Assembly: GCA_023512375.1 (NCBI GenBank)
Contig: JAILZS010000011.1
Location: 1-60,052, forward strand
Source of the DNA: Bacillota bacterium
GTDB lineage: Bacteria; Bacillota; Sulfobacillia; JAJZYS01; JAILZS01
DNA: 60,052 bases
Direction of reading: 5' to 3'
The notes below the pieces were generated by a model. It ran no database searches and was not told the origin of the DNA. It saw only the letters and a program-made list of their open reading frames with translations. The position numbers were made by a program, and so were the translations under genes. Of the stretch, positions 449 through 21,910 are shown piece after piece (position 1 is the stretch's first letter; every line of letters starts with the position of its first letter).

Positions 449-1101
449 ATGGAGGTTCCGCTCACCCCGTTGGCCCTGGTGGAACGCGGGCTCACGCTCT
501 ACCCCGACCGCGCCGCTGTGGTGGAGGACGCCGGCGTCTGCACGTACGCCCAGCTCGCCGACCGGCTTGGGCGACTGGCGGCCGCCGTGCGCCGGCTCGG
601 GGTGGGCCCGGGCGAGCGCGTCGCGCTGTTGGCCCCCAACACCGCCCAAGCTCTCGAGTGCTACAGCGGCGTCCCCTTCGCCGGCGCCGTCCTGGTGCCC
701 CTCAACACCCGCCTGGCGCCGGACGAACTCGGCTACATCCTGCGCCACAGCGAGGCGCGGGCGCTCTTTCTGGACGCCGCCCTCTGGCCCGCGGCGGAGC
801 GGGCGCTGGAAGGCCGGCGCCTCCCTTTGGTCGTCCTTGGCGAGGGGGAGAGGCCGCCGGGGGCCGTCGGGTACGAGGAACTTCTGGCGTCGACGCCGCC
901 TCTGGGGCTCGACCCGGAGGCGGTCGACGAACGCGCGCCGATCACCCTCAACTACACGAGCGGTACCACCGCGCGCCCCAAGGGCGTCGCCGTCACCCAC
1001 CGCGGCGCCTACCTGAACGCCGCCAACATGGTGTTCGCGCTGGGGCTCAGGCGGGAAGACGTACATCTCCACGTCGCACCCATGTTCCACGCGAACGGCT
1101 G
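449..1101 (+). pseudogene. Acyl-CoA synthetase, 5' half (split by integrated element)
   Basis: This is the N-terminal 218 codons of an AMP-forming acyl-CoA synthetase (ANL superfamily), the enzyme that activates fatty or aromatic acids to acyl-AMP and then acyl-CoA. The ATP-binding P-loop YTSGTTARPKGV lies at about residues 169-180, and MFHANGWG is just before the break. ATG 449 is chosen because GGAGG at 433-437 is 11 bp upstream; ATG 440 is too close. The frame runs on into foreign sequence after base 1,101 and ends near 1,423. Joining base 1,101 to 20,929 gives a 1,635-bp frame (544 aa), the normal family length, so the gene was cut by insertion and not by point decay. Confidence 0.9.
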
Positions 1102-1123
1102 GGGATTGGTCCGTGTGGGGCAC
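1087..1123. other. attL of the serine-recombinase element
   Basis: The left junction. Bases up to 1100-1101 (the TG core) are host gene sequence and 1102 onward is element sequence. The element half carries an 18-bp arm, TTGGTCCGTGTGGGGCAC, at 1106-1123. Its reverse complement recurs with 16 of 18 matches at 20905-20922 next to the right junction. The two arms lie symmetrically, each 5 bases from the centre of the TG core. Confidence 0.85.
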
Positions 1124-1429
1124 AGGCAAAAAGCGCGGAACGGCGGGCATTTCCGGCAGTTGGCGGCAGTGGCGCCGAGGGCGACAGTGAGGCGCGCGGG
1201 CGGGCATGAGCGCAAGGGCTCGGGGCGCCGACAGGTCGAACCGCCGGTGTCATGGAGGACGTGCCCAACTCCAGCTCAAGGCGAAGGAAGGGGCGAAGGA
1301 GTCTGTGGCGCTCTGCTTCCGGCTCTGCTCCCGACCGGAGGGGCTACACCGCGTTTGTGGCCGATGGGCCTGCCATGTCATCATGGAGCCAAGAGCCATA
1401 CTGTGGGATGGCTCCGGGAGTGATGTCAG
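1102..1429. other. Left-end element DNA without a recognisable gene
   Basis: About 330 bp between attL and the vapBC pair. Short frames exist, including read-through from the split synthetase to about 1,423, but none has a convincing start with recognisable content. The segment probably holds the vapBC promoter and operator. Confidence 0.5.
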
Positions 1430-1669
1430 GTGGAAGCTCGGGTTCGTCTGGGGAAAGGCGGTCGCGTGGTGTTGCCGGCACTGTATCGCAAGGCCCTGGA
1501 CCTACGGACGGGAGACGAGTTGGTGCTGGAGTTGGAGGGGGAGGTCTTGCACCTGTCGTCGGTCGCGGCCGCCGTCAGGCGCGCACAAGCGATCGTCTCC
1601 CGGCGCGTTCCCGGGAATCGCAGCCTTGCCGGGGAGCTGATCTCCGAACGGCGGACGGAGGGCTCGTGA
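1430..1669 (+). CDS. vapB: VapB-type antitoxin (AbrB/MazE fold)
   Basis: This 79-aa protein starts with MEARVRLGKGGRVVLPALYR, the swapped-hairpin AbrB/SpoVT/MazE DNA-binding motif (K-G-R-V-V-L-P-x-x-x-R) seen in VapB antitoxins. The C-terminal half is helical and charged, as expected for the part that occupies the toxin groove. GTG 1430 is supported by a CCGGGAG ribosome site at 1414-1420. It overlaps the toxin gene by 4 bp (GTGA), so the two are translationally coupled. By family rule the antitoxin, alone and with the toxin, represses its own promoter. The pair lies at the left end of the integrated element, where an addiction module would stabilise it. Confidence 0.82.
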   Translation: MEARVRLGKGGRVVLPALYRKALDLRTGDELVLELEGEVLHLSSVAAAVRRAQAIVSRRVPGNRSLAGELISERRTEGS

Positions 1670-2052
1670 GTACCTGCCTTCTCGATGCGTCGGCCATCCT
1701 TGCGCTTCTGCAGGGGGAGCCGGGAGCCAACACCGTAGCTGAAGCCATGAGATCCGGTGCCGCGGTGGTCTCCGTGAATCTCAGCGAAGTGGTGGCGAAG
1801 CTGTGTGACGGCGGCCTGTCGGACGAAGAGATCGGGCAGGTCCTCGGCGAGCTCAAGCTCGACGTCGTCGCCTTCGATCGCGAGGATGCCCGCTTGGCTG
1901 GACTGCTTCGCCGCGGAACGAGGGGGAGCGGACTGTCCCTCGGCGACCGGGCGTGCCTTGCGGTCGGTGTTCGCCGCGGCTTGACCGTTCTGACGGCCGA
2001 CGCCGCGTGGGTGGGCGTCGTGCCCGGAGCTCACGTCATCGCCATCCGATAG
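1666..2052 (+). CDS. vapC: VapC-type PIN-domain ribonuclease toxin
   Basis: This 128-aa PIN-domain protein keeps the four acidic metal ligands at the expected spacing: D7 (CLLDAS), E41 (NLSEVV), D94 (LGDRA) and D112 (TADAAW). VapC toxins are Mg-dependent endoribonucleases, usually cutting initiator tRNA or rRNA loops, and are held inactive by the cognate VapB. GTG 1666 overlaps the antitoxin stop by 4 bp. The length and intact active site suggest a functional toxin. It is the second gene of a two-gene operon and the second ORF in from attL. The target RNA cannot be told from sequence. Confidence 0.85.
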   Translation: MSTCLLDASAILALLQGEPGANTVAEAMRSGAAVVSVNLSEVVAKLCDGGLSDEEIGQVLGELKLDVVAFDREDARLAGLLRRGTRGSGLSLGDRACLAVGVRRGLTVLTADAAWVGVVPGAHVIAIR

Positions 2053-2265
2053 GGCTGGCCAAGCCTGCTCGCAGGAAGGACCTCCTTTCGACGCCACCCG
2101 TCGCCAGCCCGGGGCAGGCCACCTTGTGGTTGTGGCTGGGAGGAATACAAATGTCGCTCGGGGAGGAAGGAGCTACGCGGGGGCGAACGTGATGCCGCAT
2201 CGGGTGCCGATACGTCGCAGCCTTGTCCCCCTCGATCGTGCACCCTTGGGAGATGACACGCGGAG

Positions 2266-2751
2266 ATGGGGACGACGCGCCGCCCGTTCGAGAGTATGCT
2301 CCCCGACATTGCGGCAGCTATGGGAGCGGTACTGTTCGTGTTCGACCGGACGAAGAACAAGGCCCGACTGCGCCCGCGCGAGATGGTACTCTTTGCTGCC
2401 GATATTGCGTCGGTGGCCCGTCAGATCGGGCTGCCGGCACAGCCAACGAACTTCGATCTGGAAGGCGCGTGCTTGGCTCTGCGAGAGTTGCTGATGGATT
2501 TCCGGCAGACGACGGACGCCCGGGAGTCGAAGCACGAGCACGCGGACCGCTGTCGCTGGAGCAGCTATAGCTTCCATGTACCCGTTCGCGTTCCAAGCCA
2601 CTGGTCGAGAGACAAGGAAGAAGACGAGGCCTGCGACCATCTTGACTGGCTCGGCGACCAGCTATATATGCGGCAGCACAACGTACGGAACATTTGGCCG
2701 GAACGGAACGTGGTACCGTCCGCATTCGAGATGAACCGATCGCGGCATTAG
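2266..2751 (+). CDS. Hypothetical protein, 161 aa
   Basis: I do not recognise a family. The frame from ATG 2266 has codon use that looks coding, though with more A or T at third positions than the neighbours, and the surrounding 2.1-2.8 kb is visibly less GC-rich than the rest. The N-terminal half is amphipathic (MLPDIAAAMGAVLFVFDRT) and the C-terminal half is rich in charged and His residues, without a clear metal-binding pattern. There is no signal peptide or membrane segment. It lies inside the element between vapC and the hydrolase; the different base composition suggests separate acquisition. Confidence 0.45.
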   Translation: MGTTRRPFESMLPDIAAAMGAVLFVFDRTKNKARLRPREMVLFAADIASVARQIGLPAQPTNFDLEGACLALRELLMDFRQTTDARESKHEHADRCRWSSYSFHVPVRVPSHWSRDKEEDEACDHLDWLGDQLYMRQHNVRNIWPERNVVPSAFEMNRSRH

Positions 2752-3190
2752 GCGTTCAAGGCGTTTCACCCAGGGTGCTGGAGGGCAGCGCGGCGGCGAG
2801 CAACTGGGAGACGGTGAACGTCGTGTTCGGCCCGAGCTGTAGTGCCGACCGGCCTGGCCTTCGTGCCAGGCCTCCTTCTGGCATCATGGCGATGCCCGAT
2901 CGCTGCCGGGGGCGCACGCTTGTCGGAGGCTCCCTGCTGCACCATGGCTGGGGGCGGCTGAACCTCACGGTGCACCGGTAAACCGAGGCGTAGACCCGCC
3001 GCGACGCGGCCGGGCTTGTAGCGCCCCTGGCCGCCGGGTCGTCTTCCTGGGTATTGCGTGCGCGCGGAAGAACGACGGCGTACGCCAGTGGCACCGGAGG
3101 CGTTGGCAAAAGATTGCTCGGCTCGCGCCGCGCAACCGAAGACCGTCGGCAATGAAGGGGTGTTCTCGGAACAGGCGGCCGGTGTCGCCC
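2752..3190. other. Gene-poor stretch
   Basis: About 440 bp between the hypothetical gene and the convergent hydrolase gene. Several short frames overlap on both strands, but none has a recognisable product or a good ribosome site. I see no clear repeat or hairpin. It could be decayed coding sequence within the element. Confidence 0.4.
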
Positions 3191-4198
3191 TCAGCCGGTT
3201 GCGCCTGAGATAGGCGGCGAAGCGTGCTGCACCAGCCAGTCCATCAGGATTCGCACGCTTTCGGCGTCGAGAGTAGTATCGGCGACATTGTAACCCCGGG
3301 CCGCGTCGGCTGCCGTCAGCTCCGTGCGGCTGCGGCGTTCATGCTTGAACACGTGGTTGGCGTTGGGAGGGAAGGCCAAGGTCGCGTTGGCACCGTCGCC
3401 GAACGCTTGCGCAAGCCGCTGGCCGTCCTCTTCCCAGTCTACCTGGATGTCCTTCTGCCCGATCATGATGAGGACCGGCAGCCGCACCGACCGCAACAGG
3501 ACGGCGGCATCTGCCGACCAGAGTTCGCGCGCGAACGGCAAGTTGGCCGGCGCCTCGAGTGAGCTGAGGAGCTGCCTCACGCCGTCCGGAAGGGATGGGT
3601 CTGGGTTCGCCGGGTAGCCGGCGAGGAAACGGTCGACGGCCTCGTCGTAGAGCGCAAGAAGATGCTCCCCGTCCGGAAGGGCGGCGGCCTGCCGAGCCAG
3701 CTGGGCGCGGGCGACTGCGCCCACGGGGCGCCCCGGCGGCGCCAGGAGGATGATGCCGCGCAAAGGAACCTGCGGGTCGTTCAGGACGTAGTTCAGGACA
3801 TGCAAGGCACCCTCGCTGTGCCCCAGGCCGAACACCCGATCACGCCGAATGTACGACCGCGATACTGCTGCTGCGACAGCCCCGGCGAACTCCTCGCGGT
3901 GCGAGGCCATGCTGACCCGCCCCAGGAGGTGAGGCAGGTTCTCCCGCGCGTGGGGACCCGCGACACGCTTGTCGTAGCGAAGGGACGCGAAGCCTCGGGT
4001 GGCCAGTGCCTCGGCGATCAGACGGCCGCTGCCATTGGAGCCGGGAAGAAGGGGGGAGTTCCAGTCGCGGTCCGTCGGGCCGCTTCCGGCAACCATGACG
4101 ACGACCGGAAAGGGGCCGGACGCAGCGGGCGTCAGCAAGGTACCGTGCACCCGCGTCTCGCCGAGCTCCCAGTCGATCTCGTCGGTGTGGAATTCCAC
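3191..4198 (-). CDS. Alpha/beta hydrolase (dienelactone hydrolase/S9-like)
   Basis: This 335-aa cytoplasmic protein has the alpha/beta-hydrolase layout. An N-terminal strand region is followed by the oxyanion-loop motif VVMVAGSGPTDRD (about residues 33-45), the nucleophile elbow GLGHSEG (Ser in G-x-S-x-G, about residue 129), a lid region, a late Asp in IGQKDIQVDW, and the catalytic His in PPNANHVFKHE. Members hydrolyse esters or short peptides; the substrate here is unknown. GTG 4198 has AGGGAG about 8-9 bp upstream. It is transcribed leftward in the element, separately from the NO cluster. Confidence 0.75.
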   Translation of the reverse strand: MEFHTDEIDWELGETRVHGTLLTPAASGPFPVVVMVAGSGPTDRDWNSPLLPGSNGSGRLIAEALATRGFASLRYDKRVAGPHARENLPHLLGRVSMASHREEFAGAVAAAVSRSYIRRDRVFGLGHSEGALHVLNYVLNDPQVPLRGIILLAPPGRPVGAVARAQLARQAAALPDGEHLLALYDEAVDRFLAGYPANPDPSLPDGVRQLLSSLEAPANLPFARELWSADAAVLLRSVRLPVLIMIGQKDIQVDWEEDGQRLAQAFGDGANATLAFPPNANHVFKHERRSRTELTAADAARGYNVADTTLDAESVRILMDWLVQHASPPISGATG

Positions 4199-4334
4199 GG
4201 TATCATCTCCCTCGAACCCACGGCGTCTTTCGCACCCGTGCGGCGCCGCCGATTGCGTTCAGCGGTTATCTGGCGGTCGCTTTCGTCGAGACCGGCGCGC
4301 GGAGACGGACGCGCCCTGGTGTGCCAAGGCGCCT

Positions 4335-4781
4335 TCAGGGCGAGTCGATCGCCCTTCTCACGAGAGCGACGATCCGTTCGGCTTCGGCATCTCCAAGGTC
4401 TGTCAGCGCGTACACCACCGGCCACATGGTGCCTTCGTCGAGACGGGCACGGTCGCCGAATCCCAAGGTCGCATACCGCGCCTTGAACCGGGCCCCGCTT
4501 TGAAAGTAGCAGAGAACCTTCCCGTCCTTGGCATAGGCTGGCATGCCGTACCAGGTCCTGGGCGTAAGCTCCGGCGCGTAGGTTTTGAGGAGCGCGTGCA
4601 ACCGCTCGGCCATCGCCCGGTCCTGCGCCGGCATCTCGGCGATCTTGGCCAACACAGCTTCTTCGCCTTCCGTGTCGCGCACCCGGTCACGCATGGCTGC
4701 GCGCTCTTCTTCTGTGAAACGGGAGTGGGCGCCGCCGCGGTCCCGCGATGGCTTGGCGGATGGAGACGTTCTGGCCGGCAT
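4335..4781 (-). CDS. DUF1801/YdhG-like small protein
   Basis: This 148-aa protein has the DUF1801 (YdhG/YjbR-like) features: a helical segment with 'VLAKIAEMPAQDR', then TWYGMPAYAKDGKVLCYFQ, where the W-x-G-M-P-A-Y and following F/Y-Q strand are typical, and a C-terminal ERIVALVRRAI helix. Relatives such as B. subtilis YdhG/Fra bind iron and are proposed frataxin-like iron chaperones, which would suit a cluster with iron-sulfur and diiron proteins; that link is inference. ATG 4781 is preferred because GGAGG at 4791-4795 is 9 bp upstream; ATG 4790 abuts it. Confidence 0.7.
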   Translation of the reverse strand: MPARTSPSAKPSRDRGGAHSRFTEEERAAMRDRVRDTEGEEAVLAKIAEMPAQDRAMAERLHALLKTYAPELTPRTWYGMPAYAKDGKVLCYFQSGARFKARYATLGFGDRARLDEGTMWPVVYALTDLGDAEAERIVALVRRAIDSP

Positions 4782-5095
4782 CGAATACATCCTCCACGAT
4801 GTCTGGTGCGGTCTGGTGCATGAATCAAGCTGCGTCGTGAGCGGCCTCACGATAGCACACGCTGACACCGAATTGAGAGAGGGCGAGACAAGGAGTCCGC
4901 GTGTCCTGCCGCCTAGCGGAACAGGGGCCGTAGCTGCTGGGGGCGCCGGGGGGCCCTGGTGGGCCCCTGCGGGGAGAAATGGCGGCAAGCGGCTGATCCT
5001 TCGCATCGCGGCGTCTGGTAGCGCTGCGCCCACCCCGCACCGCGCGAGTCGCCACGGCGGCGACGTCGCCCGTCGGCCGCCTTTCCCTCCCCTCC
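4782..5095. other. Intergenic stretch, no gene seen
   Basis: About 310 bp between the DUF1801 gene and the membrane protein that ends the NO operon. It includes a GC-rich run with GGGGGCCCTGGTGGGCCCC-like dyads near 4950-4970 that could form a terminator hairpin for the leftward operon. No T-tract follows, so that is only a possibility. No coding signal stands out. Confidence 0.35.
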
Positions 5096-5614
5096 TCACG
5101 CTCCTACGACTAGTCCCGTGCCGAGCAGGCTGACGACGAGGGCCAGGAATAGGTTCATCCGCCCGAGCCATGACGCCCAGCGCCGTGCCCGTTCGATCTC
5201 GGCGAGAAGGGCGGGTGACGGCCCCTCGCGCCGCAGGCGCTCGCCCAGGCGAGCCGAGCGTTCCACCAAGACCACGTCGTGGCCCACAACCCCGACCAGG
5301 AGCACCGCCACGGCCGCGAGCTTGAGGCCGAGCACCGTTCCCAAGGGCGTAAGGTAGAAGGACCAGGCGAACAGCTCGGCCGGCCGGATCCCCATGAGCA
5401 GGAGGTTGGCGACCCCGGTGACGAGGAGCAACCCGATCGCCGTCCAGGCGTACGGACGGCTGCGCCGACCCAGGGAGCGGAACAACTCCGCCCGTTCCTC
5501 CGCCGGCAGGGTGCGACTGTAGGGGCCGGCAACCAGGGCGAGAAACAGCATCTCGCCGATCCAGAACATCGCCGCAAGAACATGAACATACAGAACCGCC
5601 CACCTGAGCCCCAT
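5096..5614 (-). CDS. Four-helix membrane protein (CopD/DUF4149-like)
   Basis: This 172-aa integral membrane protein has about four hydrophobic segments: residues 5-30 with 'YVHVLAAMFWIGEMLFLALV', 55-75, 90-115 and 150-170. The first helix contains the H-x8-G-E/x pattern seen in CopD and DUF4149 proteins, which are linked to copper or haem handling in the membrane. It is the last gene of the leftward operon that starts with the oxidase, 48 bp after the hemerythrin gene, and ATG 5614 has GGGAGG about 11 bp upstream. A role in metal supply or assembly of the oxidase is plausible but unproven. Confidence 0.65.
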   Translation of the reverse strand: MGLRWAVLYVHVLAAMFWIGEMLFLALVAGPYSRTLPAEERAELFRSLGRRSRPYAWTAIGLLLVTGVANLLLMGIRPAELFAWSFYLTPLGTVLGLKLAAVAVLLVGVVGHDVVLVERSARLGERLRREGPSPALLAEIERARRWASWLGRMNLFLALVVSLLGTGLVVGA

Positions 5615-5662
5615 CGAGATCCCGCCCTCCCATCGCCGCCGTGCGGTGCGGCAGCATCCGCC

Positions 5663-6103
5663 CTACCGTCGTTCCCAGGCGGCGAGGACAGGGGCGGGTA
5701 GGTGGCGCGCCTTCGGGAACACGAGGAGGTTCTCGCGCTGCATGTGCATGGCGAGCCGCCCGCGCAGCGTCCGCGCCGGCTCCGTCCAATGCGCGGCCGC
5801 CGCGTCCTGGTCCGCAAGGGTGCGCACGCGTTCGTAGAGGGTGCGCACCTCGGCGTGCTCGGCGATCAGCGTCGCCAACAGCGCGTCCATGCCCGCGCCT
5901 TGGAGGGCCGGGAACACGATGTCCTCCTCGCTTTCGGCATGGCCGTGGACGATGGCGCACACGACCCGTAGCGCATCCTCGCGTTCGTCGCCCCAGACGC
6001 TACGGGCCTTGCCGGCGAGGGCAAGGGCGCACGCCGCCTCGAGGCGTTCGAGCGCCGCCGCGGCCTCGCGGTGTTCCTCCTCCAACCGCTCGATCAACGA
6101 CAT
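5663..6103 (-). CDS. Hemerythrin HHE-domain protein
   Basis: This 146-aa all-helical protein has the hemerythrin cation-binding pattern: EEEHREAAAALERLE near the start, HGHAESEEDIVFPAL at about 53-67 (His and Glu ligands), EHAEVRTLYERV at about 82-93, and HMQRENLLVFPKA at about 120-132. These residues would hold a non-haem diiron site that binds O2 or NO, or takes part in iron-sulfur repair as in YtfE/Ric proteins. It is 14 bp downstream of the DUF59 gene. The operon also carries DUF2249 proteins and the oxidase, a grouping common in NO-metabolising bacteria. Confidence 0.85.
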   Translation of the reverse strand: MSLIERLEEEHREAAAALERLEAACALALAGKARSVWGDEREDALRVVCAIVHGHAESEEDIVFPALQGAGMDALLATLIAEHAEVRTLYERVRTLADQDAAAAHWTEPARTLRGRLAMHMQRENLLVFPKARHLPAPVLAAWERR

Positions 6104-6117
6104 GCCGTCGGCCTCCC

Positions 6118-6432
6118 TCAAGCGAAACCGAAGTGACGCTTGGCGTCGTCGCTCATCATGTCCGGCGTCCACGGCGGCGACCACACCACCTGCACGGCCA
6201 CGTCGTGCACGCCGTCGAGCATCGCCACCCGTTCGCGCGTGCCCTCCTCGATGTAGTCGGCTGCCGGGCAGCCCGGTGTCGTCATCGTCATCGTGATCTC
6301 CACTCGTCCGTCCTCCACGGCGATGCCGTACACGAGACCGAGGTCGACGATGTTGTAGCCGAGTTCGGGATCGTAGACCTCGCGGAGCGCCTCGCGCACT
6401 GTCTCGACGCTGGGTTCGCCCGTGTCGCTCAC
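6118..6432 (-). CDS. DUF59/MIP18-family iron-sulfur assembly protein
   Basis: This 104-aa protein matches the MIP18/DUF59 family (SufT, PaaD N-domain). It has VREALREVYDPELGYNIVDL, where the D-P-E-L-x-x-N-I-V-D-L motif is diagnostic, and ITMTMTTPGCPAADYIEE with the conserved reactive Cys in T-P-G-C-P. Family members help mature iron-sulfur proteins. The GTG start at 6432 overlaps the stop of the preceding DUF2249 gene by 4 bp, so it is coupled to it. Here it would fit repair or assembly of iron centres damaged by NO. Confidence 0.88.
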   Translation of the reverse strand: MSDTGEPSVETVREALREVYDPELGYNIVDLGLVYGIAVEDGRVEITMTMTTPGCPAADYIEEGTRERVAMLDGVHDVAVQVVWSPPWTPDMMSDDAKRHFGFA

Positions 6433-6971
6433 GCCCTGTCGCCTCCCCGGCGGATGGTGAGGTGGACGCCGTCGTTTCGGCGGTCGATGCGGATCTGGTG
6501 GCCTCGGGCCTCAAGCTCCGGCAGGAGGAACATGGGCTCGCGGTCGTTGATCGCGGCGAGCACCTCGCCCGGGGCGAGGTCCTCCAGCGCCTGCAGGATC
6601 CGCATCATGGGTTCGGGCGGCATAAGGCCGCGGTTGTCGAGGTGGGTCGCGGGCGGTGGCCAGTCGTCGCTTGCCGTTTCGGCCGGAGAGCGCCCGTCCC
6701 CCCGGACGGCGCCGGCCGCTCCCCGCGCGGTCTGTGCCGGCCGAAACAGGATCTCCCAGTCGCCCTCGCCCAGCCGCCGGGCCTCGTGCGCGAAGCCCCG
6801 CCCGGCGAGGACCCGGTAGAGGGGAATCGGCTCGAACGTCGCGTACAGGCGCAGGCCGCGACCCGGTGGCAAGGCGTCGACCGCCGCCAGGATGCGGGCG
6901 AGGGGCTCGCGCCCCGCGCGCAGGTCGTCGCGTACGTCGAGGACGCTCAGATCATCGTCGCTCGTTCCCAT
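6429..6971 (-). CDS. Protein with two DUF2249 domains
   Basis: This 180-aa protein holds two DUF2249 units. The first is at about 8-78, with LDVRDDLRAGREPLARILAA and LRLYATFEPIPLYRVL. The second is at about 110-175, with LDNRGLMPPEPMMRILQALE and VLAAINDREPMFLLPELEAR. A low-complexity linker joins them. DUF2249 is a TusA-like fold often found beside hemerythrins, NnrS-type proteins and NO regulators; its biochemical role is not settled. ATG 6971 has AGGGGGAG upstream and overlaps the end of the membrane-protein gene by 20 bp. The duplication in one chain may provide two interaction surfaces. Confidence 0.85.
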   Translation of the reverse strand: MGTSDDDLSVLDVRDDLRAGREPLARILAAVDALPPGRGLRLYATFEPIPLYRVLAGRGFAHEARRLGEGDWEILFRPAQTARGAAGAVRGDGRSPAETASDDWPPPATHLDNRGLMPPEPMMRILQALEDLAPGEVLAAINDREPMFLLPELEARGHQIRIDRRNDGVHLTIRRGGDRA

Positions 6972-8457: not shown

Positions 8458-8509
8458 GGCCGTTCCCTCCTCAGGAGCTCGTCGAGCGCGACACCTGGCG
8501 CGAGCGCCT

Positions 8510-9013: not shown

Positions 9014-9015
9014 CG

Positions 9016-11977: not shown

Positions 11978-11979
11978 GG

Positions 11980-13287: not shown

Positions 13288-13297
13288 ACTCGGCTGT

Positions 13298-13311
13298 GTG
13301 ATCGCGGTCAC
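13298..13311. promoter_or_regulatory. Crp/Fnr-type operator 2, mrp/ferredoxin divergent promoter
   Basis: GTGATCGCGGTCAC, preceded by TGT, gives TGTGA-N6-TCAC, close to the E. coli CRP consensus. Its centre is 24 bp from the centre of operator 1 (two to two and a half helical turns), compatible with two dimers on nearly the same face. Confidence 0.7.
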
Positions 13312-13386
13312 TGTCCGGTCCGGTTGCGCCTGCGACACTGGGGCCGAAGCGCCGGGGCCCTCGGGCCCGGGGGGAGGTCCACCCGC

Positions 13387-13647: not shown

Positions 13648-13666
13648 CCGGCGGGGGCGGGCGGCG

Positions 13667-14338: not shown

Positions 14339-14375
14339 CGGCCGAGGACCGGTCTTGGGCCGATGACGCCCACCG

Positions 14376-15203
14376 TCACGCGCCGGCATTGCCGCGTCGC
14401 GCCCGGGGTCGCCCGCCGGCCTGGAGGCGTTCGGCCACGGCCATGCGCGCGCCGACCACCGCGCCCGCGCCGCTCCAGGCGACGAGCGACGCCCACTGCC
14501 ACGCTGCGGGCCAGCTGCCGCTCAGGGCGCGACCGAGAGCGCCGACGGCGCTGCCCACCGGCAGGACGTCGCGGACGGCGACGGCGATCGTCGGCAGGTG
14601 GCCGCTGGGCACGATGCCCAGGAACAGGACGGCCATCATCATCAGGTTGCCGACCAGCCCGGCGACGGCCTCGCTCGAGGCGGCGAGGCCGACGGCGGCG
14701 CCGATGCCGCCGAGGGCGAAACCGCTGAGCAACAAGACCGGGAGCAAGGCGGCATCGGGTCGCAGGACGACGCCGTAGAGCGCGTGGCCGAGAAGGGCGA
14801 CGACGGCCAGTCCGGGCAGCGCGAACGCCGTCGCCGACACGAACAGCGCCAGGAGGATCAGGACGGGCGCCACCGGCAACGTGCGCAGAAGGTCGAAGCT
14901 GCCGTTGTGCACGGCCTCCGATACTTGTTGGGCCATGAGCGTCACGGCGGTGATGCCTAGGACGAGGTCCATGGCCCCGACCGTGGCGGTCGAGCCGGCG
15001 GCGCGGTCGAGGCGGCCGACGAGGTCGAGGAGGAGTACGATGCCCGCCGGCATCGCCGTGCTCACGACCAGGTAGGGGCGCCAGTGACGGCGCGCGCGCG
15101 CGAGGGTGAGGGCTACGAGCGCAGCCAGGGCGGCCGGCGCCGACGGCACCGGTGGCGCTAGCGCGACGCGGGGCGATCCGGTCGGTGCGGGGCGTCGAGC
15201 CAT
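14376..15203 (-). CDS. ABC-2 type transporter permease
   Basis: This 275-aa integral membrane protein has about six helices: about 28-60 after a short basic N-terminus, then 80-95, 112-145, 155-180, 185-215 and 232-255. FDLLRTLPVAPVLILLALF, between helices two and three, resembles the coupling-helix region of ABC-2 permeases. Its gene overlaps the ATPase gene by 46 bp, which makes a two-gene exporter similar in design to NosFY or CcmBA. In this setting it might supply a factor for maturation of the metalloenzyme; the substrate is unknown. Confidence 0.8.
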   Translation of the reverse strand: MARRPAPTGSPRVALAPPVPSAPAALAALVALTLARARRHWRPYLVVSTAMPAGIVLLLDLVGRLDRAAGSTATVGAMDLVLGITAVTLMAQQVSEAVHNGSFDLLRTLPVAPVLILLALFVSATAFALPGLAVVALLGHALYGVVLRPDAALLPVLLLSGFALGGIGAAVGLAASSEAVAGLVGNLMMMAVLFLGIVPSGHLPTIAVAVRDVLPVGSAVGALGRALSGSWPAAWQWASLVAWSGAGAVVGARMAVAERLQAGGRPRARRGNAGA

Positions 15204-16144
15204 GCGGCCATCGCCTCCTCGAGCGAGGGAGAGCGGATTTCGAGGGCCTCGAACCCGCCGAGCGCCGACCGCTCTGCCAGCCACCCAAGGCTGGCGGGAT
15301 GGTCTTCGGGCGCGACGAGGAGATCGCACCCCCGCCGGGTGGCGCCGCCGCCTACGCGCGACCAGGGCGCGGACGGCGGCGACACGCCGGGCGGTAGGCG
15401 TACCCGCAGGCGGCGGTCGATGGCGCGCACCACGTCGGCGACGGGGCCGAAGGCGCGCAGACGCCCGCCGACCAAGACCGCGACGTCGTCCACCACCGCC
15501 TGTGCCTCGGCCAGAAGGTGGGTGACGAGCAGAACGGCCGAGCCACGCTCCGAAAGCTCGCGGATGAGCGTCCAGGCGGCCGCGCGGAAATCCGCGTCGA
15601 GGGCGGCCGTGGGCTCGTCTAGGACGACGAGCGGGGTGGGAACGAGCGCCGCCGCACCGAGGGCTACGCGCTGGCGTTCGCCCCCGCTCAGGGCGGCGAT
15701 CGGCCTCTGGCCGAGGGGGCCCAGGCCCAGGCGTTCCACCAACTCCGCCGCCCGGCGCCGCGCCGCCGCGGCGCCCAGGCCGCGCAGGCGGCCGAGCAGG
15801 GCCAACGCTTCGCCCGGCGTCAGGTCGGCGAACAACTGCGGCTCCTGGCGCATGTAGGCGATCGCCCGCTGCACCTCGCGCCGGCCGAGGCGGACCTCCC
15901 GGCCGAGGACGTGCACCTTCCCGGCGGTCGGCGCGAGCAGTCCGACGGCGATCCGGGCGAAGGTCGTCTTGCCCGCGCCGTTGGGTCCGATCAGGCCCAG
16001 GATGCGTCCGGGCGTGAGCGTCAGGTCGACGCCCGCCAGGGCGACGACCGGCCCTGGGTAGGTCCGGCTCACTCCCTCCGCCACGAGCACCGCATCCGCT
16101 GCCGTCGTCGCCGCCACCACCCGAATCGCCTCCCCTGCCGACAC
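15158..16144 (-). CDS. ABC transporter ATP-binding protein
   Basis: This 328-aa ATPase has Walker A GPNGAGKTT (53-61), Q-loop near residue 100 (MRQEPQLF), signature LSGGERQRV (152-160), Walker B LVVLDEP (172-178) and the switch His in VTHLLAEAQ (209). The C-terminal 100 residues form an extra regulatory domain, as in NosF- and Bcr-type exporters. It pairs with the overlapping permease gene. A near-match operator at 16225-16238 lies 80 bp upstream, between it and the divergent cupin gene, so it is probably in the island regulon. Confidence 0.9.
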   Translation of the reverse strand: MSAGEAIRVVAATTAADAVLVAEGVSRTYPGPVVALAGVDLTLTPGRILGLIGPNGAGKTTFARIAVGLLAPTAGKVHVLGREVRLGRREVQRAIAYMRQEPQLFADLTPGEALALLGRLRGLGAAAARRRAAELVERLGLGPLGQRPIAALSGGERQRVALGAAALVPTPLVVLDEPTAALDADFRAAAWTLIRELSERGSAVLLVTHLLAEAQAVVDDVAVLVGGRLRAFGPVADVVRAIDRRLRVRLPPGVSPPSAPWSRVGGGATRRGCDLLVAPEDHPASLGWLAERSALGGFEALEIRSPSLEEAMAAWLDAPHRPDRPASR

Positions 16145-16224
16145 ATCGAGCGGGCGGCACCCGCCATGGCACCCGGCGGGCTCGCCCAGCGGCTAGGATC
16201 GCACCACCCCAGCCGGCGGACGGT

Positions 16225-16238
16225 GTGACCGCGCGCAC
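16225..16238. promoter_or_regulatory. Imperfect Crp/Fnr-type operator, exporter/cupin divergent promoter
   Basis: GTGACCGCGCGCAC has one mismatch to GTGA-N6-TCAC. It is flanked by GT and AC, which extend the dyad. It lies between the divergent exporter and cupin genes. An apparent GTG start for the cupin lies inside it and is therefore unlikely to be real. Confidence 0.5.
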
Positions 16239-16344
16239 ACGGAAACGTCCCGGGCGCGCTATGCTGGGCGGCAGGCGAACGCGTCGGTCCCTGAGCCTTC
16301 CCGCCGGCGCAGAGCCGAACCTGGCTCGTGAGGAGGACCTGGGC

Positions 16345-16689
16345 GTGCACCACATCGCCGCCGCCGCGCGCGGCCCCTGGCAGACGACCAACATCGAGGG
16401 CGTCTTGGGACACGACCTCCTGGCGTTGCCGGAGGGGACGGCCAAGCTCATCCGCCTCCTGCCGGGCGCCCGCTATCCCCGCCACCAGCATCCGGCGCGC
16501 ACGGAGTACGCCTACGTCCTCGCCGGCACGCCACGCCTGATCGTCGCCGACCAGGCGTACGACGCGGCGGTCGGGGACTTCGTCACCTTCCCGACGGACA
16601 CTCCACACGCGCTCGAGAACCACGCTCAGGTCGAGGCGCTGCTCCTCGTCGGGGCCGTGTATCATCGACCGACGCCGGACGGGGACTGA
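16345..16689 (+). CDS. Small cupin-domain protein
   Basis: This 114-aa single-domain cupin has motif 1 YPRHQHPARTEYAYVLAG (two metal-binding His, one Glu) and motif 2 FVTFPTDTPHALENH (His). GTG 16345 is chosen because GAGGAGG at 16330-16336 is 8 bp upstream; longer frames to 16225 begin inside the operator. Small cupins bind Fe, Mn, Ni or Zn and act as sensors or small enzymes such as dioxygenases. The 3' end overlaps the convergent NADH dehydrogenase gene by 28 bp. The substrate cannot be inferred. Confidence 0.75.
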   Translation: MHHIAAAARGPWQTTNIEGVLGHDLLALPEGTAKLIRLLPGARYPRHQHPARTEYAYVLAGTPRLIVADQAYDAAVGDFVTFPTDTPHALENHAQVEALLLVGAVYHRPTPDGD

Positions 16690-18074
16690 GCGCGCCCGCG
16701 CGGCGCGCGCCTTGGCGTCGCCCTGGAGTCGCCCGCCGGCGCGGCGGGAACGACCGGGCCTGCGCCCGCGCCGCCCGCCGCCGCGGGCGGCGTGCCGTCG
16801 AAGTCGAACAGGATGCGTGCGCTGGGCCGGTCGAACCAATACGCGGCCGCCCAGTGGACGAGCACCAACAGTCGGTTCTCGAACCCGATCAGGGTGGCGA
16901 TGTGCACCACGAGCCAGAACAACCAGCCGATCAGGCCGACGACGTGCAGCGGGCCGATTTGGACGACGGCCGCACTCCTTCCCAGCGTCGCCATCTGGCC
17001 GTGGTCGCGGTAGCGGAACGGTAGCGTCGGGCGCCCGGCCAAGCGGCGCCGGATCATCGCCGCCGCGTGCCGGCCCTGCTGCTGGGCGACCGGCGCCAGC
17101 GCCGGCAGGAGGTGGCCCCTCTCGTCCGTCGCGCCGGCGAGGTCGCCGACGACGAACACCTCGGGGTGGCCGGGAAGGGAGAGGTCAGGGAGGACGGAGA
17201 CGCGGCCGCCGGCGGCGGTGGCGACGCCGAGGGCGCTTCCGACGGGCGAAGCGCGGTTGCCCGCAGCCCAGAACGCGATCGCGCCCGGCAGGCGTTCGGT
17301 GCCGACGGTGACCCCGGCGTCGTCGAGCGCCGTCACGGCGCAGTTCAGGCGCACCTCCACCCCCAGCGCCTCCAGGCGCCGGCGCGTGTACTCGGAAAGG
17401 GACGGGGCCAGAGCGGGCAACAGTCGCGGTCCGGCTTCGGCCAGGACGACGCGGGTGCGCTCGGGGCGCACCGCGCGCACCTCCCGCACGAGCACGCGGC
17501 GGGCGATGCCCGCGAGCGCGCCGGCCAACTCCACCCCGGTCGGGCCGCCGCCCACGACCACGAACACGGGCTCGGACGCGGACCCCAGGTCCACCCCGTC
17601 GGCGCGTACCCGCTCGGCCGCTTCGTAGGCGCCCAGCAGGCGGTGGCGGATGCCGAGCGCATCGGCGAGGGTCTTGAGGCCTGGCGCCCGCGCCTCCCAC
17701 CCCTCATGGCCGAAGTACGCGTGGCGCGCCCCTAGCGCGAGCACCAGGTAGTCGTAAGGGATCTCGCTTGCGTCCGGGGTCAAGCGCACGACGCGGCGCT
17801 CGAGGTCGATGCCGGCGATCTCGGCCATGAGCACGCGCACGTCGCGCCGCCGGCGCAGGATGGACCGGATGGGCACCGCGATGTCCTCGGGCGACAGGAC
17901 GCCGACGGCGACCTGATAGAGAAGCGGCTGGAAGAGATGGTGGTTGGTGCGGTCGACGATGGTCAGGTCCACGGGTGCGCCCGCGAGCGCCCGGGCGGCG
18001 AACAGGCCGCCGAAGCCCGCGCCGGTGACGACGACGCGCGCCCGGCGCGCGGCGCCCTGGGCGGTGGCCGCCAC
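16662..18074 (-). CDS. Type II NADH:quinone oxidoreductase (NDH-2)
   Basis: This 470-aa flavoprotein has an FAD-binding GAGFGG at 18-23, TNHHLFQPLLYQVA (typical of NDH-2), a second dinucleotide fold with VVVGGGPTGVELAG, and VFVVGDLAG near the C-terminal FAD site. A C-terminal hydrophobic segment, VVHIATLIGF, attaches it to the membrane. NDH-2 passes electrons from NADH to quinone without pumping protons, a low-cost way to feed an NO or O2 reductase. GTG 18074 follows AAAGGGGGG with 6 bp spacing. The C-terminal 40 residues are low complexity. Confidence 0.88.
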   Translation of the reverse strand: MAATAQGAARRARVVVTGAGFGGLFAARALAGAPVDLTIVDRTNHHLFQPLLYQVAVGVLSPEDIAVPIRSILRRRRDVRVLMAEIAGIDLERRVVRLTPDASEIPYDYLVLALGARHAYFGHEGWEARAPGLKTLADALGIRHRLLGAYEAAERVRADGVDLGSASEPVFVVVGGGPTGVELAGALAGIARRVLVREVRAVRPERTRVVLAEAGPRLLPALAPSLSEYTRRRLEALGVEVRLNCAVTALDDAGVTVGTERLPGAIAFWAAGNRASPVGSALGVATAAGGRVSVLPDLSLPGHPEVFVVGDLAGATDERGHLLPALAPVAQQQGRHAAAMIRRRLAGRPTLPFRYRDHGQMATLGRSAAVVQIGPLHVVGLIGWLFWLVVHIATLIGFENRLLVLVHWAAAYWFDRPSARILFDFDGTPPAAAGGAGAGPVVPAAPAGDSRATPRRAPRGRAQSPSGVGR

Positions 18075-18112
18075 AGTCGACCCCCCTTTCGCCAGCCGCT
18101 CGGCGCCTGAGG

Positions 18113-18586
18113 TCAGCGTCCGCCCCCGTCGGCTGTGCCGTACGGGGAGACGTAGCCGCCGACCGGCGGGCGGAAGGCGACCGACATCCGGTTCCAGCCG
18201 TTGATCGCCACGATCGCCAGTGTCAGGGCGACGAGTTCGCGTTCGTCGAACGCCCGGCGGGCTTCCTCGAACGCTGCGTCGGGGACATGGCTTTGGGCCA
18301 CCAACGTGACGGCCTCGCACCACGCGAGGGCCGCTCGCTCGCGTGCGCTAAAGCACTCGGCTTCCCGCCACACCGCCACCAGGTGCAGACGCCCCTCGCT
18401 CTCGCCGCGGGCGCGCGCGTCCTTGGCGTGCATGTCGACGCAGTACGCGCAGCCGTTCAGCTGCGAGGCGCGCAGGCGCACGAGCTCGAGTAGGGTCGGT
18501 TCGAGTCCGCTCTCGCGCACGGCCGCCTCGACGCCGCTGAGCGCGTCGCGGGCCGGCGGGAAGGCCTTGGACCAGTCGAGGCGCAT
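18113..18586 (-). CDS. AhpD-like carboxymuconolactone decarboxylase family protein
   Basis: This 157-aa helical protein carries the AhpD core motif LNGCAYCVDMH, with the redox pair Cys46-x2-Cys49 and the proton-relay His, at residues 43-53. Relatives include alkylhydroperoxidases that detoxify peroxides or peroxynitrite. ATG 18586 begins the frame, and the NDH-2 start at 18074 is 38 bp downstream, so the two are probably cotranscribed with the DUF2249 gene above. It fits an oxidative/nitrosative defence role in the island. Confidence 0.85.
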   Translation of the reverse strand: MRLDWSKAFPPARDALSGVEAAVRESGLEPTLLELVRLRASQLNGCAYCVDMHAKDARARGESEGRLHLVAVWREAECFSARERAALAWCEAVTLVAQSHVPDAAFEEARRAFDERELVALTLAIVAINGWNRMSVAFRPPVGGYVSPYGTADGGGR

Positions 18587-18636
18587 GTGGCGTGATCCTC
18601 CTCGTCGTGTTCGCCTCGCAGCGCCGGGGCGCCGGT

Positions 18637-18870
18637 TCAGGCCGCGGTGCGGGCGATGTGGACGCGCCACACCTCGGGGCCGCGCTCGAGATACGTCCAG
18701 GTGAACTTGTCGGCGTGCTCGGCCTGAAACTGATAGTACAGCGGCAGCGGGTCGTGGTCGTTCACCAGCTCCAGCACCTCGCCCACGCCGAGGCTGTTCC
18801 AGGTCGAGAAGATCGTCTCGTGCCGGCGAGCCGGCGGCAGGGAGCGAACATCCAACGTCGTCGTGGCCAT
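18637..18870 (-). CDS. Single-domain DUF2249 protein
   Basis: This 77-aa protein is a complete single DUF2249 unit: LDVRSLPPARRHETIFSTW, LVNDHDPLPLYYQFQAEH and a C-terminal WRVHI strand. It is the fourth DUF2249 domain in the element, most similar in motif layout to the C-terminal domain of the hemerythrin fusion (both have N/V-D-H-D-P-L-P-L). A GAGGTGGG ribosome site precedes ATG 18870. A perfect operator at 18932-18945 lies 62 bp upstream, so it is the first gene of the DUF2249-AhpD-NDH-2 operon. Confidence 0.88.
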   Translation of the reverse strand: MATTTLDVRSLPPARRHETIFSTWNSLGVGEVLELVNDHDPLPLYYQFQAEHADKFTWTYLERGPEVWRVHIARTAA

Positions 18871-18931
18871 GTTTCCCACCTCGCAATGCCAGACTCCGCT
18901 CCCACGGTAGGGGGCCGACGAGCGATGGACC

Positions 18932-18945
18932 GTGACCGCCGTCAC
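18932..18945. promoter_or_regulatory. Crp/Fnr-type operator upstream of the DUF2249-AhpD-NDH-2 operon
   Basis: GTGACCGCCGTCAC matches GTGA-N6-TCAC exactly and lies 62 bp before the DUF2249 start, much like the 59 bp spacing at the oxidase operon. The similar distance suggests activation from the same position. Confidence 0.7.
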
Positions 18946-19273
18946 GCGCCGTCCGCCGCCGGTGGGCCGAGAAGGACGGGAGCGACGATGTCGTACATGC
19001 GTTGGGCTGACCCCGTAGATCGACGGTCGCGACCGAAGTGCACGCGGTCGAGCGGATGAAGCCAACGGGTCGTCGTGTGATGCGCTGAACGTTGGCCACG
19101 CCTGTCGGCCCGACAGCCAGGGTTTGCCCTTGTGACCTGGCCGCAGATCTGCGCGCAGCGAGACCTGCCCTGCCCGTTGGGACGCAATGGCCTCCAGGGA
19201 TCCTCCTGGGGGCCTTGGGCGTCCACGCACACCAGGGTTCAAACGCCCGTAGGCTCTTCGGAGGTGAGCTTTG
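18946..19273. other. Gene-free stretch before the recombinase operon
   Basis: About 330 bp between the island's last leftward promoter and the recombinase operon. I see no recognisable coding frame. Upstream signals for the 60-aa gene and recombinase should lie in the last 100 bp, which ends in a strong GGAGGTGAG ribosome site at 19260-19268. Confidence 0.45.
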
Positions 19274-19456
19274 GTGAGCCAAGCCCAGCAGCTTCGACTG
19301 AAGGAGCCCCTTCCCGACCAGCCGGTTGTCCGGGCTTGGGACGAAGCTCCACCCAACGTGCGTCGGGCGTACGCGGTGATGGCGTCAGCCTATCTCCGGC
19401 GTCGCGTGACACACCGTGCACCTGGCCGCCCGGACTCCTGTTCGCAGACGGGGTGA
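19274..19456 (+). CDS. Small protein just upstream of the recombinase (60 aa)
   Basis: GTG 19274 is preceded by GGAGGTGAG (19260-19268) at ideal spacing, one of the best ribosome sites in the element. The product is charged and probably helical (QPVVRAWDEAPPNVRRAYAV, then a basic YLRRRVTHR). Its stop is 4 bp before the recombinase start, so the two are translationally linked. I do not recognise a family. Small basic proteins next to large serine recombinases can be recombination directionality factors or accessory proteins. That role is a hypothesis from position and size only. Confidence 0.5.
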   Translation: MSQAQQLRLKEPLPDQPVVRAWDEAPPNVRRAYAVMASAYLRRRVTHRAPGRPDSCSQTG

Positions 19457-19460
19457 GCGG

Positions 19461-20897
19461 GTGCCGACGCCGCTTCTCTACTGCCGCGTCTCCACGCAGG
19501 AGCAGGCGAACGAAGGGTACAGCCTGGACGCCCAGCTCGCCCAGCTGGAAGCGTACTGCGGAAGCCAGGGGTGGGAACCCGGCGGGCGGTACGTGGAGGA
19601 AGGGTACTCCGCCAAGAACCTGGAGCGGCCGCAGCTGCAAGCCCTGCTGGCGGACGTCCGTTCCCATCGGTTCAAGGAGCCGCTCGTCCTCGTGTGGCGC
19701 CTGGACCGGCTCACGCGGTCGGTCGCCGACCTGTATGTGCTGCTCTCGATGTTGGAGGAAGACGGGGGTGCCTTCCGCTCCATCACCGAACCGTTCGAAA
19801 CCCAGACGGCCGTGGGCAAGCTGTTCGTGACCCTGATCGCGGCCATGGCGCAATGGGAGCGGGAGAACCTCATCGAGCGCGTCCGCCTGGGGCAGATGCA
19901 CCAGGTCATCCATACGGACGACTGGACCGGCGGGCGGCCGCCATACGGCTACCGCCTCGTCAAGAAGAAGCTTCGGGTGGACCCGGAGGCGGCCGCGGTG
20001 GTGCGAGAGGTGTACGGCAGGTTCCTGGTAGAGGGGAACCTCTACGCCATCGCGCGCGACCTCAACGCCCGCGGCATCCCGGCTCCGGGCGGCAAGGGGT
20101 GGAACGCGCACAGGCTGCGCTACATCCTGTCGAATCCCGTATACGCCGGCATCCGGACATGGCAGCGACACGTGCGCGGTGCCGATGGCAAACGAGCCTA
20201 CCGGCGGCGGTCACGGGATTCCTGGAAGGTCGTGGAGGATCAACGCTTCCCCGCCATCGTGGACCGCGGCACCTGGGAACGGGCGATGGGGGTCGTCGAG
20301 GGGCGTGGGCGTGTCTCCCACAGGCACGGCTGGGGGGAGCACCCGCTTACGGGCGTGCTGGTGTGCGGGGCATGCGGGTCGACGATGAACGGCAAGCTCG
20401 TGCGGCGGGGAGACAGGTCGTATCGCTACTACCGGTGTCCCAGACGCTACCAGGGCCGGGCGTGCCAGCGCGGGCAGGTGCGGGCGGAGGACTTGGAGGG
20501 CCTGGTGCTGACTGCGATCCAGGCGCGGTTTGCAGAACAGGCGCTCTTGGAGCAGGCGGTGGTGGAGATGCAAGGCGCGGACGACACCGACGGAAGTCGT
20601 CTCGCAGCGGAGCTCGAGGACGTGCGCCGACGCATGCGCCGATGGGAAGACGCCTACGAGGAGGCGCAGATCGACGCCAGCACGCTGGGCCAGCGCCTGC
20701 GGGACCTCCGGGCACGGGAGGGGGAGATTCTGGTGCGCATGCGGAATCTGTCAACAGCGCACGAGGGGCCGGCGCAGGTGTTCGCGAGCGAAGGCTGGGC
20801 CTCCATGACGGCAGCCGAGCGCCAGGCATTCGTACACGATCTCGTAGCACGTGTGACGATCGATCTGGATGGGTCCGTGGACATCGACTGGCGGTAG
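19461..20897 (+). CDS. Large serine recombinase (site-specific integrase)
   Basis: This 478-aa recombinase has the N-terminal resolvase catalytic domain with nucleophile Ser11 (YCRVSTQEQ), R-L-D-R-L-T-R at about 89-95 and the long E helix. A 'Recombinase' DNA-binding domain follows (about 165-290; PPYGYRL, ARDLNARGIPAPGG, ILSNPVYAG), then a zinc ribbon (about 305-345; LVCGACG, YRCPRR, CQRG) and a C-terminal coiled coil (EDVRRRMRRWEDAYEEA). This is the architecture of phiC31/Bxb1-type integrases. GTG 19461 is chosen because upstream starts are weaker. The gene ends 7 bp from the attP left arm, the usual integrase-attP arrangement. All key catalytic residues seem present, so it is probably active. 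Confidence 0.95.
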   Translation: MPTPLLYCRVSTQEQANEGYSLDAQLAQLEAYCGSQGWEPGGRYVEEGYSAKNLERPQLQALLADVRSHRFKEPLVLVWRLDRLTRSVADLYVLLSMLEEDGGAFRSITEPFETQTAVGKLFVTLIAAMAQWERENLIERVRLGQMHQVIHTDDWTGGRPPYGYRLVKKKLRVDPEAAAVVREVYGRFLVEGNLYAIARDLNARGIPAPGGKGWNAHRLRYILSNPVYAGIRTWQRHVRGADGKRAYRRRSRDSWKVVEDQRFPAIVDRGTWERAMGVVEGRGRVSHRHGWGEHPLTGVLVCGACGSTMNGKLVRRGDRSYRYYRCPRRYQGRACQRGQVRAEDLEGLVLTAIQARFAEQALLEQAVVEMQGADDTDGSRLAAELEDVRRRMRRWEDAYEEAQIDASTLGQRLRDLRAREGEILVRMRNLSTAHEGPAQVFASEGWASMTAAERQAFVHDLVARVTIDLDGSVDIDWR

Positions 20898-20904
20898 GCA
20901 GGGC

Positions 20905-20941
20905 GTGCCCCATTCGGACCAAAGGATGGGGGATGGTGTGG
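20905..20941. other. attR of the serine-recombinase element
   Basis: The right junction. The arm GTGCCCCATTCGGACCAA at 20905-20922 is element sequence, the TG core is 20927-20928, and host sequence resumes at 20929. The host half contains GTGG at 20938-20941, which mirrors CCAC at 1087-1090 about the core, a weak dyad in the original attB. The frame of the split gene is preserved across the core. Confidence 0.85.
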
Positions 20942-21910
20942 GCCACACTCGCCGTCGGCGCGGCCAACGTTCCCCTCCTGCGCGTGACGGGCGAGACCGT
21001 CCTTGAGCGCGTGCGCCGCATGGGCGTCACCGTGCTGTGCGCCGCCCCCACCGTCCTGGGGATGATCGTCCGGGCTGCCCGCGCTGCACCTGGCGGCGCC
21101 CCCCGAGGCGTGCGGGTGGCGACGGCAGGAGGGGCGCCGACGGCGGCCGTGATCCAGGCGGTGGAGGAAGAGGTGGGGTGGCCGGTCACCCACCTGTACG
21201 GCCTCACCGAGACCACCGCCTTCGCCACCTATTGCGAACCTCCGGCCGACCTGGAGCACATGCCGGCGGCAGAGCGCGCCCGCTTCAAGGCCCGCCAGGG
21301 GGTCCCCCTCTTGCTCGCGGGGCGGGTGCGGGTGGTGCGCTCGGACGGTCGTCCGGTGGCGGCCGACGGGCGGGAGATGGGAGAGGTGGTGGTGCGGGGC
21401 AACGTCGTCATGGCCGGCTACCACGGCGACCCTGTCGCCACCGCCGAAGCGATGGGGGGCGGCTGGCTGCGCACGGGCGACCTGGCGGTGCGCCATCCGG
21501 ACGGATACATCGAGGTGCGCGACCGGCTCAAGGACGTCATCAAGTCGGGCGGGGAGCAGATCCCGTCCATCGAGGTCGAGGGGGTCCTCGCCGCCCACCC
21601 GGAGGTGGCGGAGGTGGCGGTCGTCGCCGCCCCCCACCCCCACTGGGGGGAGACGCCGGTGGCGTTCGTGGTCCCTCACGCGGGCCGCCGTCCCACGGCC
21701 GAGGCGTTGACCGAGCACTGCCGCGCCCGCCTCACGCACTTCAAGGTGCCCACCAGGTTCGTCTTCGTGCCCGAGCTGCCGCGCACGGCGAGCGGCAAGG
21801 TGCGCAAGGCCGAACTGCGCCGCCTCGTGGAAGGGGACCCGGCGTCCGGTGGGCAGGGCGGCATGGCCGTGGCGCCGCCCGCGACAGGCCAGGGTGCGGG
21901 CGAGCCGTAG
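20929..21910 (+). pseudogene. Acyl-CoA synthetase, 3' half (split by integrated element)
   Basis: This is the C-terminal 326 codons of the synthetase begun at 449. It contains motif A5 HLYGLTETTA, A7 WLRTGDLAV, the A8 hinge with KDVIKSGGEQIPSIEVE and the A10 lysine in PRTASGKVRKAELR. All are intact, with no stop codons or frameshifts, so the gene seems recently interrupted or kept functional by excision. An ATG at 20933 could allow translation of this half alone, but it lacks the P-loop and could not activate acids. It is 50 bp before the convergent acetyltransferase gene. Confidence 0.9.

Follow-up and report, generated by a model that had tools for sequence, protein, structure and literature searches.

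The stretch of DNA analysed here (the window, one complete contig of 60,052 bases from a 93.2% complete draft genome whose 104 contigs total 2,683,301 bases) raises the question of what has divided a gene for an AMP-forming acyl-CoA synthetase, an enzyme type that activates fatty or aromatic acids, into two distant parts, and whether that division can be undone. Analysis of the left part of the window reveals that the synthetase gene is interrupted by an element of 19,827 bp (1102–20928), and that the insertion is real, clean and well delimited. The 5′ part of the gene (449–1101, plus strand; 218 codons, the last one cut), identified by its PF00501 match and by the joined frame, contains the P-loop, and the 3′ part (20929–21910, plus strand), identified by the joined frame and by orthologs, contains the later motifs. 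Joined together, they give 1,635 bp encoding 544 amino acids and a stop, with no internal stop or frameshift. The joined protein contains the motifs YTSGTTARPKGV, YGLTETT, GWLRTGDL...RDR and TASGK, and these four blocks align with the orthologs. A first-pass annotation of the window had claimed that removal of the element restores the frame exactly and leaves no motif missing, and it was right on both points. In our interpretation the element is very probably an integrative genomic island that was put into the synthetase gene by its own serine integrase and that carries a cargo for the reduction of nitric oxide (NO). The integrase domains with their catalytic segment, a palindromic attP, the exact restoration of the gene and the empty site in relatives can all be read from the sequence.

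The junctions share a TG core, found at 1100–1101 within attL (1080–1124) and at 20927–20928 within attR (20904–20948), the extents of both sites being approximate; TGGGG is common to the two, so that the crossover could fall at any of five bases. When the ends of the element are joined, the resulting attP is a pseudo-palindrome centred on TG with 16 of 24 positions paired, compared with 2 to 9 for centres shifted by 1–6 bases. Over 20 positions 14 are paired. Of 20,000 shuffles, a fraction of 0.00005 equalled this value at the same centre and 0.0007 when any of 21 centres was allowed; among 200,000 random joins made within the window the fraction was 0.000445. A caution against over-reading these figures is that the best eight of the approximately 60,000 window positions are ordinary palindromes scoring 16–17/24; since equally good palindromes occur in the window, the weight rests on the symmetry falling exactly on the core shared by both junctions, and these were defined independently of symmetry, by the split gene. 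The attB site is less symmetric than attP (10/20 paired). PMC3783163 describes an attP of this pseudo-palindromic form, built of 25-bp half-sites, for integrases of the A118 family. On paper, the hybrid attL and attR sites recombine to give the palindromic attP and the uninterrupted synthetase gene.

The enzyme that would have carried out this reaction is encoded at the right end of the element (19461–20897, plus strand). It is a large serine recombinase of 478 amino acids with the Pfam domains Resolvase (PF00239), Recombinase (PF07508) and zinc-ribbon (PF13408), the last with its four cysteines present, and it matches an integrase family of PHROGs (phrog_95) at 4.2e-129. Its reading frame and catalytic segment are intact, including YCRVS, which we take to hold the catalytic serine. 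The NCBIfam models for CcrB (161.7 bits, cut-off 900) and XisF (NF041201; 135.9 bits, cut-off 375) are matched far below their cut-offs; XisF of the fdxN element is thus a related recombinase, whereas the island has no heterocyst context. Among the matches listed, the best phage relatives are from Geobacillus virus E2 (36.6% identity) and Anoxybacillus phage A403 (32.3%), and 60 loci in viral contigs contain relatives, the highest identity being 54% over residues 6–148 only. Two further serine recombinase genes of the same genome (L002 on contig C50 and L003 on contig C66) are 37% and 31% identical to the integrase.

We propose that the integrase recombined the attP of a circular form of the element with a conserved motif in the synthetase gene (attB, core TG), which would have produced attL at 1100 and attR at 20927. 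Integration into a conserved coding motif would explain the junctions, the palindrome and the restored gene together, and the locus presents a serine integrase with both attachment sites directly readable. That an assembly artefact or a chance rearrangement joined an unrelated 19.8-kb segment into the gene is scarcely credible: the draft state of the genome, with its 104 contigs, and a local gene order unlike that of relatives would suit such an event, but neither process would give a palindrome on the shared core together with a conserved protein segment across the flanks, and an intact integrase stands at the end of the element.

Comparison with relatives free of the element, which had been suggested as a check on the insertion, was carried out in a set of 154 genomes of the class, 15 of which (the present one included) belong to the same order. 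Up to 9 candidates were scored in each genome, and the joined protein is matched at E ≤ 1e-120 in 29 of the 154 genomes, its own included. A split synthetase was found in none of the 28 others, the closest of which are of the same order; this count holds for these 28 only, as more distant split copies could score below the cut-off. In 27 of them the match is unbroken, starting no later than residue 4 and reaching at least residue 515, and the remaining match (G046) ends at residue 435, where the contig ends. Five of the 28 orthologs (G003, G014, G049, G078 and G082) carry stop codons that are read through within the match; G014 and G049 are stop-free up to residue 525, which places their stops in the tail, and G003 has two stops somewhere before residue 537. 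The insertion point lies in the conserved segment VAPMFHANGWG-M-VWATLAVGAAN, which reads VAPMFHANGWGMVWATLAVGAAN in the joined window. Compared with 12 orthologs, 10 differ at 1–4 of 23 positions and one (L014) at 10, and the last (L016) escaped the motif search. The attB of Streptomyces phage R4 also lies in an acyl-CoA synthetase/ligase gene, a parallel that we do not use as evidence.

Gene order was compared with 12 synthetase loci fetched from relatives, on the basis of matches above 35% identity. In 10 of them a GNAT acetyltransferase gene is divergent from the synthetase 5′ end, and a Mur-ligase-like gene comes after it. The window differs: its better-matching acetyltransferase (21960–22439) is found at the synthetase 3′ end in convergent orientation, and a second acetyltransferase stays beside the Mur-ligase-like gene at 31.7–34.0 kb (31749–33350, 33639–34046). 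The displaced acetyltransferase indicates that a local rearrangement or duplication also occurred here, by which the palindrome is not explained.

This difference in gene order around the synthetase is one of several observations that weigh against the island interpretation. The others concern the integrase, the mobility of the element and its cargo. No near copy of the integrase (above ~40% identity) occurs in the 154 class genomes, and its site preference therefore has no second insertion as a check: at 1e-55 relatives are found in four genomes, namely its own and three others (G033, G010 and G137) at 36–40% identity, and a synthetase fragment beside related integrases was found in 0 of 32 loci (L034–L065), with flanks of ≤1.5 kb in 11 and up to 10 kb in 21. 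Neither a second copy of the island nor its circle was found, the attP pattern being absent from the assembly with up to 3 mismatches allowed, so that mobility can only be inferred; for the circle this negative is weak, as a draft assembly would rarely hold one. Finally, the NO activity of the cargo reductase is a prediction from sequence.

Elements of this kind have been surveyed. The large serine recombinase elements in coding genes described in PMC10083194 resemble the island in having the recombinase at one end, a dinucleotide core and a conserved coding site, whereas the present integrase has no class relative above ~40% over most of its length. For 82.8–88.3% of integrase clusters, that survey predicts relative site specificity, the target gene clusters numbering one to three.

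As long as the island sits in the gene, the synthetase would be inactive, since the insertion separates the P-loop from the YGLTE motif within the large domain. The unjoined 5′ frame reads into the element as far as a stop at 1423 and would give a product of 324 amino acids, whose element-derived tail differs from both synthetase halves in G+C at the three codon positions (0.642, 0.660 and 0.717 in the tail; 0.788, 0.507 and 0.903 in the 5′ half; 0.791, 0.549 and 0.911 in the 3′ half). In the attR region (20920–20936) a purine-rich stretch directly precedes an in-frame ATG at 20933, and the 3′ part could on this account be translated alone, as a protein of 325 amino acids.

The first-pass annotation had further described the host gene as free of decay. 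This is borne out by the absence of stops and frameshifts in the 1,635 bp and by tree distances to seven outgroups that are no longer than those of uninterrupted orthologs: for the N part, 1.89 for the window gene compared with 1.88–2.19 for 12 uninterrupted orthologs, and for the C part, 1.46 compared with 1.33–1.52. These half-gene trees contain 22 sequences, with proteins cut at the first stop, and the distances span the whole branch, in which a short recent relaxation would not show. In a neutral model, 2.2% of random substitutions give stops; 95% of copies would be broken by 1.5–2.6% divergence, assuming 0.05–0.1 indels per substitution, and at 8.4–9.3% divergence if there were no indels. 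Given these breakage times, a young insertion would leave the gene undecayed even in the absence of selection, and the data are consistent with a young insertion, with a synthetase still of use, or with both.

The same estimates bear on whether the island can still leave. Excision should be possible in principle, given a directionality factor, which this class of integrase needs for the purpose (PMC3783163; PMC5025042). The element has approximately 23 genes, of which the Pfam scan covered 19 proteins and the PHROGs scan 8. The frames at 13387–13647, 16261–16689, 18113–18586 and 18637–18870 were outside the Pfam scan; two of these four were scanned with NCBIfam and one with PHROGs, and 13387–13647, like the short uncalled frames, entered no library scan (Pfam, NCBIfam or PHROGs). 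Among the element proteins scanned, no directionality factor was recognised. Together with the failure to find another copy, and with neutral decay estimates that allow an undecayed gene without selection if the insertion is young, this gives some substance to the idea of a grounded island, inserted by its integrase and then unable to leave, the loss of the synthetase being permanent although its halves have yet to decay. The intact frame and catalytic segment of the integrase speak against it, and we regard it as a serious possibility that falls somewhat short of even chances. It describes a state of the integrase-inserted island rather than a different origin, and its share is included in the probability given to that explanation.

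An opposite idea is that excision is programmed, at sporulation or at a shift in nitrogen oxides, and turns the synthetase back on, as in skin/sigK, SP-beta/spsM and gin/gerE. The first-pass annotation had likened the insertion to skin in this sense, and part of the likeness stands: the insertion is site-specific, precise removal restores the gene with neither half decayed, spore germination genes of the GerA and spore-permease types are located nearby (25247–29078), and a non-phage precedent exists in gin (PMC5595907). Regulated reversal, on the other hand, is very unlikely. The interrupted gene is metabolic and not a sporulation gene, the split was observed in no genome but this one, a directionality factor was not recognised, and the 300 bases preceding the integrase hold sigma-E-like and sigma-K-like sites only at chance level (0.295 and 0.405 of shuffles being as good). 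A search of the rest of the assembly, allowing up to 3 mismatches, found no empty site and no circle junction, again a weak negative in a draft assembly. Moreover, restoration of the frame is expected of any clean serine-integrase insertion, and alone it is no argument for a developmental switch. We likewise give very little credence to a reversible metabolic switch, in which the island, when inserted, would provide the NO-reduction module at the expense of the synthetase, and regulated excision would rebuild the synthetase and leave the module on a circle; if true, a single recombination event would link acid activation to NO reduction in a spore-forming bacterium.

The known systems mark out these differences. 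As described in PMC5595907, gin in gerE of Bacillus cereus ATCC10987 is alike in being a non-phage element of tens of kb in a gene of a spore former, with serine recombinase and exact restoration, but it interrupts a sporulation gene, has three recombinase genes and the extra factor GirX, and its excision has been shown, whereas the island has one recombinase gene and a metabolic target and is known from sequence. Skin in sigK (PMC5025042) and SP-beta in spsM (PMC4191935) are, in the accounts given there, also serine recombinase insertions whose removal restores the gene; unlike the island, they are prophages or prophage-like, lie in sporulation genes and have known excision control.

The island carries a group of respiratory genes, which span approximately 5.1 to 18.9 kb and include two membrane proteins without a family match. 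Their centre is a heme-copper subunit I (9016–10500, minus strand; PF00115) that is probably a nitric oxide reductase (NOR) of the sNOR/bNOR type. Histidines are retained in this COX1-type protein at the kinds of positions expected, and its active site reads GHIIAN, whereas the other COX1 proteins of the genome read GHPEVY in 4/4 cases; the PF00115 search revealed no second COX1 protein of NOR-like type in the genome. In a table of PMC8756737 this position is Asn in sNOR and CuA-NOR and Tyr in oxygen reductases. It is unlikely, though it deserves consideration, that the protein instead reduces oxygen or is some other enzyme: among solved structures oxidases come nearest, and the NCBIfam matches are to cytochrome oxidases, all with scores far below cut-off. 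The replacement of the active-site Tyr by Asn, also in 7/7 homologs and with Tyr retained in the four other COX1 proteins of the genome, and the accompanying hemerythrin and iron-sulfur repair genes argue for the NO reductase. In sNOR and bNOR (CuA-NOR), as presented in PMC8756737 and PMC11388526, a COX1-type subunit with the active-site Asn likewise has a COX2-type partner; the present reductase differs in its location on an integrase island, and it is assigned to sNOR/bNOR jointly since the number of proton channels separates the two. According to PMC11388526, Bacillota have qNOR, bNOR and sNOR, and sNOR without another NOR is rare (2/433).

Subunit I is flanked on one side by the COX2-type subunit II (10556–11173, minus strand; PF00116), which contains CMEYCGAEHPYM, presumably a CuA-type ligand pattern, and on the other by a third gene (8510–9013, minus strand) that has no family match and adjoins subunit I in 7/7 related loci. 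Next to this gene is a long hydrophobic membrane protein (6952–8457, minus strand) for which Pfam and NCBIfam gave no match, and whose likeness to NnrS is our guess. On the same strand follow a DUF2249/TusA-like protein (6429–6977; PF10006, PF01206), an iron-sulfur cluster assembly protein (6118–6432; PF01883), a hemerythrin-domain protein (5663–6130; PF01814) and a CopD-like membrane protein (5096–5614; PF05425, 28.4 bits, below the cut-off of 32.1), and beyond subunit II a hemerythrin-DUF2249 fusion (11207–11983; PF01814, PF10006) and a Mrp/NUBPL-type ATPase for iron-sulfur transfer (11980–13182; PF10609). On the plus strand are a ferredoxin-like protein recognised by its cysteine pattern (13387–13647) and a Crp/Fnr-type regulator (13667–14338; PF13545, PF00027). 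The group also includes an ABC transporter, an AhpD-family protein and an NADH dehydrogenase-type (NDH-2-like) flavoprotein (16662–18074, minus strand; PF07992, with NDH2_C just below cut-off). We suggest that the reductase, the hemerythrins, the iron-sulfur repair proteins, the regulator and the NADH dehydrogenase would act as one NO-reduction module, and its place on a serine-integrase island provides a route by which the trait could pass between spore-forming bacteria. Papers already exist on denitrification genes in genomic islands, and we do not claim that mobile NO reductases are new; literature searches, judged by top-ranked titles only, gave no title on this element.

Homologs of subunit I with 56–59% identity are present in six other genomes, all of the same order (7/15 order genomes with the present one), and none was found at 1e-60 in the other 139 class genomes. 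In the seven fetched homolog loci, subunit I is accompanied by adjacent genes for subunit II and the third protein, and its active site is GHTIAN. Some of these loci also contain genes of the iron-sulfur assembly, DUF2249, Crp or NADH dehydrogenase types, and this integrase (above 30% identity) was found near the reductase in none of the seven loci, of 9 to 20 kb each. A close plasmid-borne reductase was not found, three plasmid records giving a best identity of 42.7%. The ends of the island are lower in G+C (0.669 at 1102–5095 and 0.680 at 18871–20928) than the cargo core (0.730), a contrast that hints at separate histories for backbone and cargo; the flanks range from 0.719 to 0.741. The occurrence of its homologs in this order alone at the 1e-60 cut-off, with no match to this integrase in the loci fetched, suggests that the reductase module is native to the order and was captured here by the integrase element, with which the G+C distribution agrees.

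Near the left end of the element, a MazE-like antitoxin-type protein (1430–1669, plus strand; PF04014, 28.2 bits, cut-off 24.7) and a PIN-domain protein (1678–2052, plus strand; PF01850, 43.9 bits) form a putative toxin-antitoxin-like pair that may help to retain the island. They are followed on the minus strand by an alpha/beta hydrolase-type protein (3191–4198; PF12146) and a DUF1801-like protein (4335–4694; PF08818, 22.8 bits, below the cut-off of 27.2). Further to the right, the respiratory group contains an ABC-2 type membrane protein (14376–15149, minus strand; PF01061), an ABC transporter ATPase (15158–16144, minus strand; PF00005) and an AhpD-family protein (18113–18586, minus strand; TIGR00778); beyond the ATPase gene is one for a cupin-like protein with a weak match (16261–16689, plus strand; NCBIfam TIGR03404, 18.3 bits, far below cut-off). 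A prophage and a conjugative or mobilisable element were also considered for the element as a whole and rejected: no phage structural or packaging gene was found among the 19 Pfam-scanned and 8 PHROGs-scanned proteins nor in the NCBIfam matches, and no relaxase or transfer family among the 19 Pfam-scanned proteins. The last gene before the integrase encodes a DUF2249-like protein (18637–18870, minus strand) that is 46% identical to the DUF2249 part of the fusion at 11207–11983. The cluster thus contains three DUF2249-type proteins, one with a TusA match (6429–6977), one fused to hemerythrin and this short one, and such genes recur near the reductase in three of the related loci (L093–L095).

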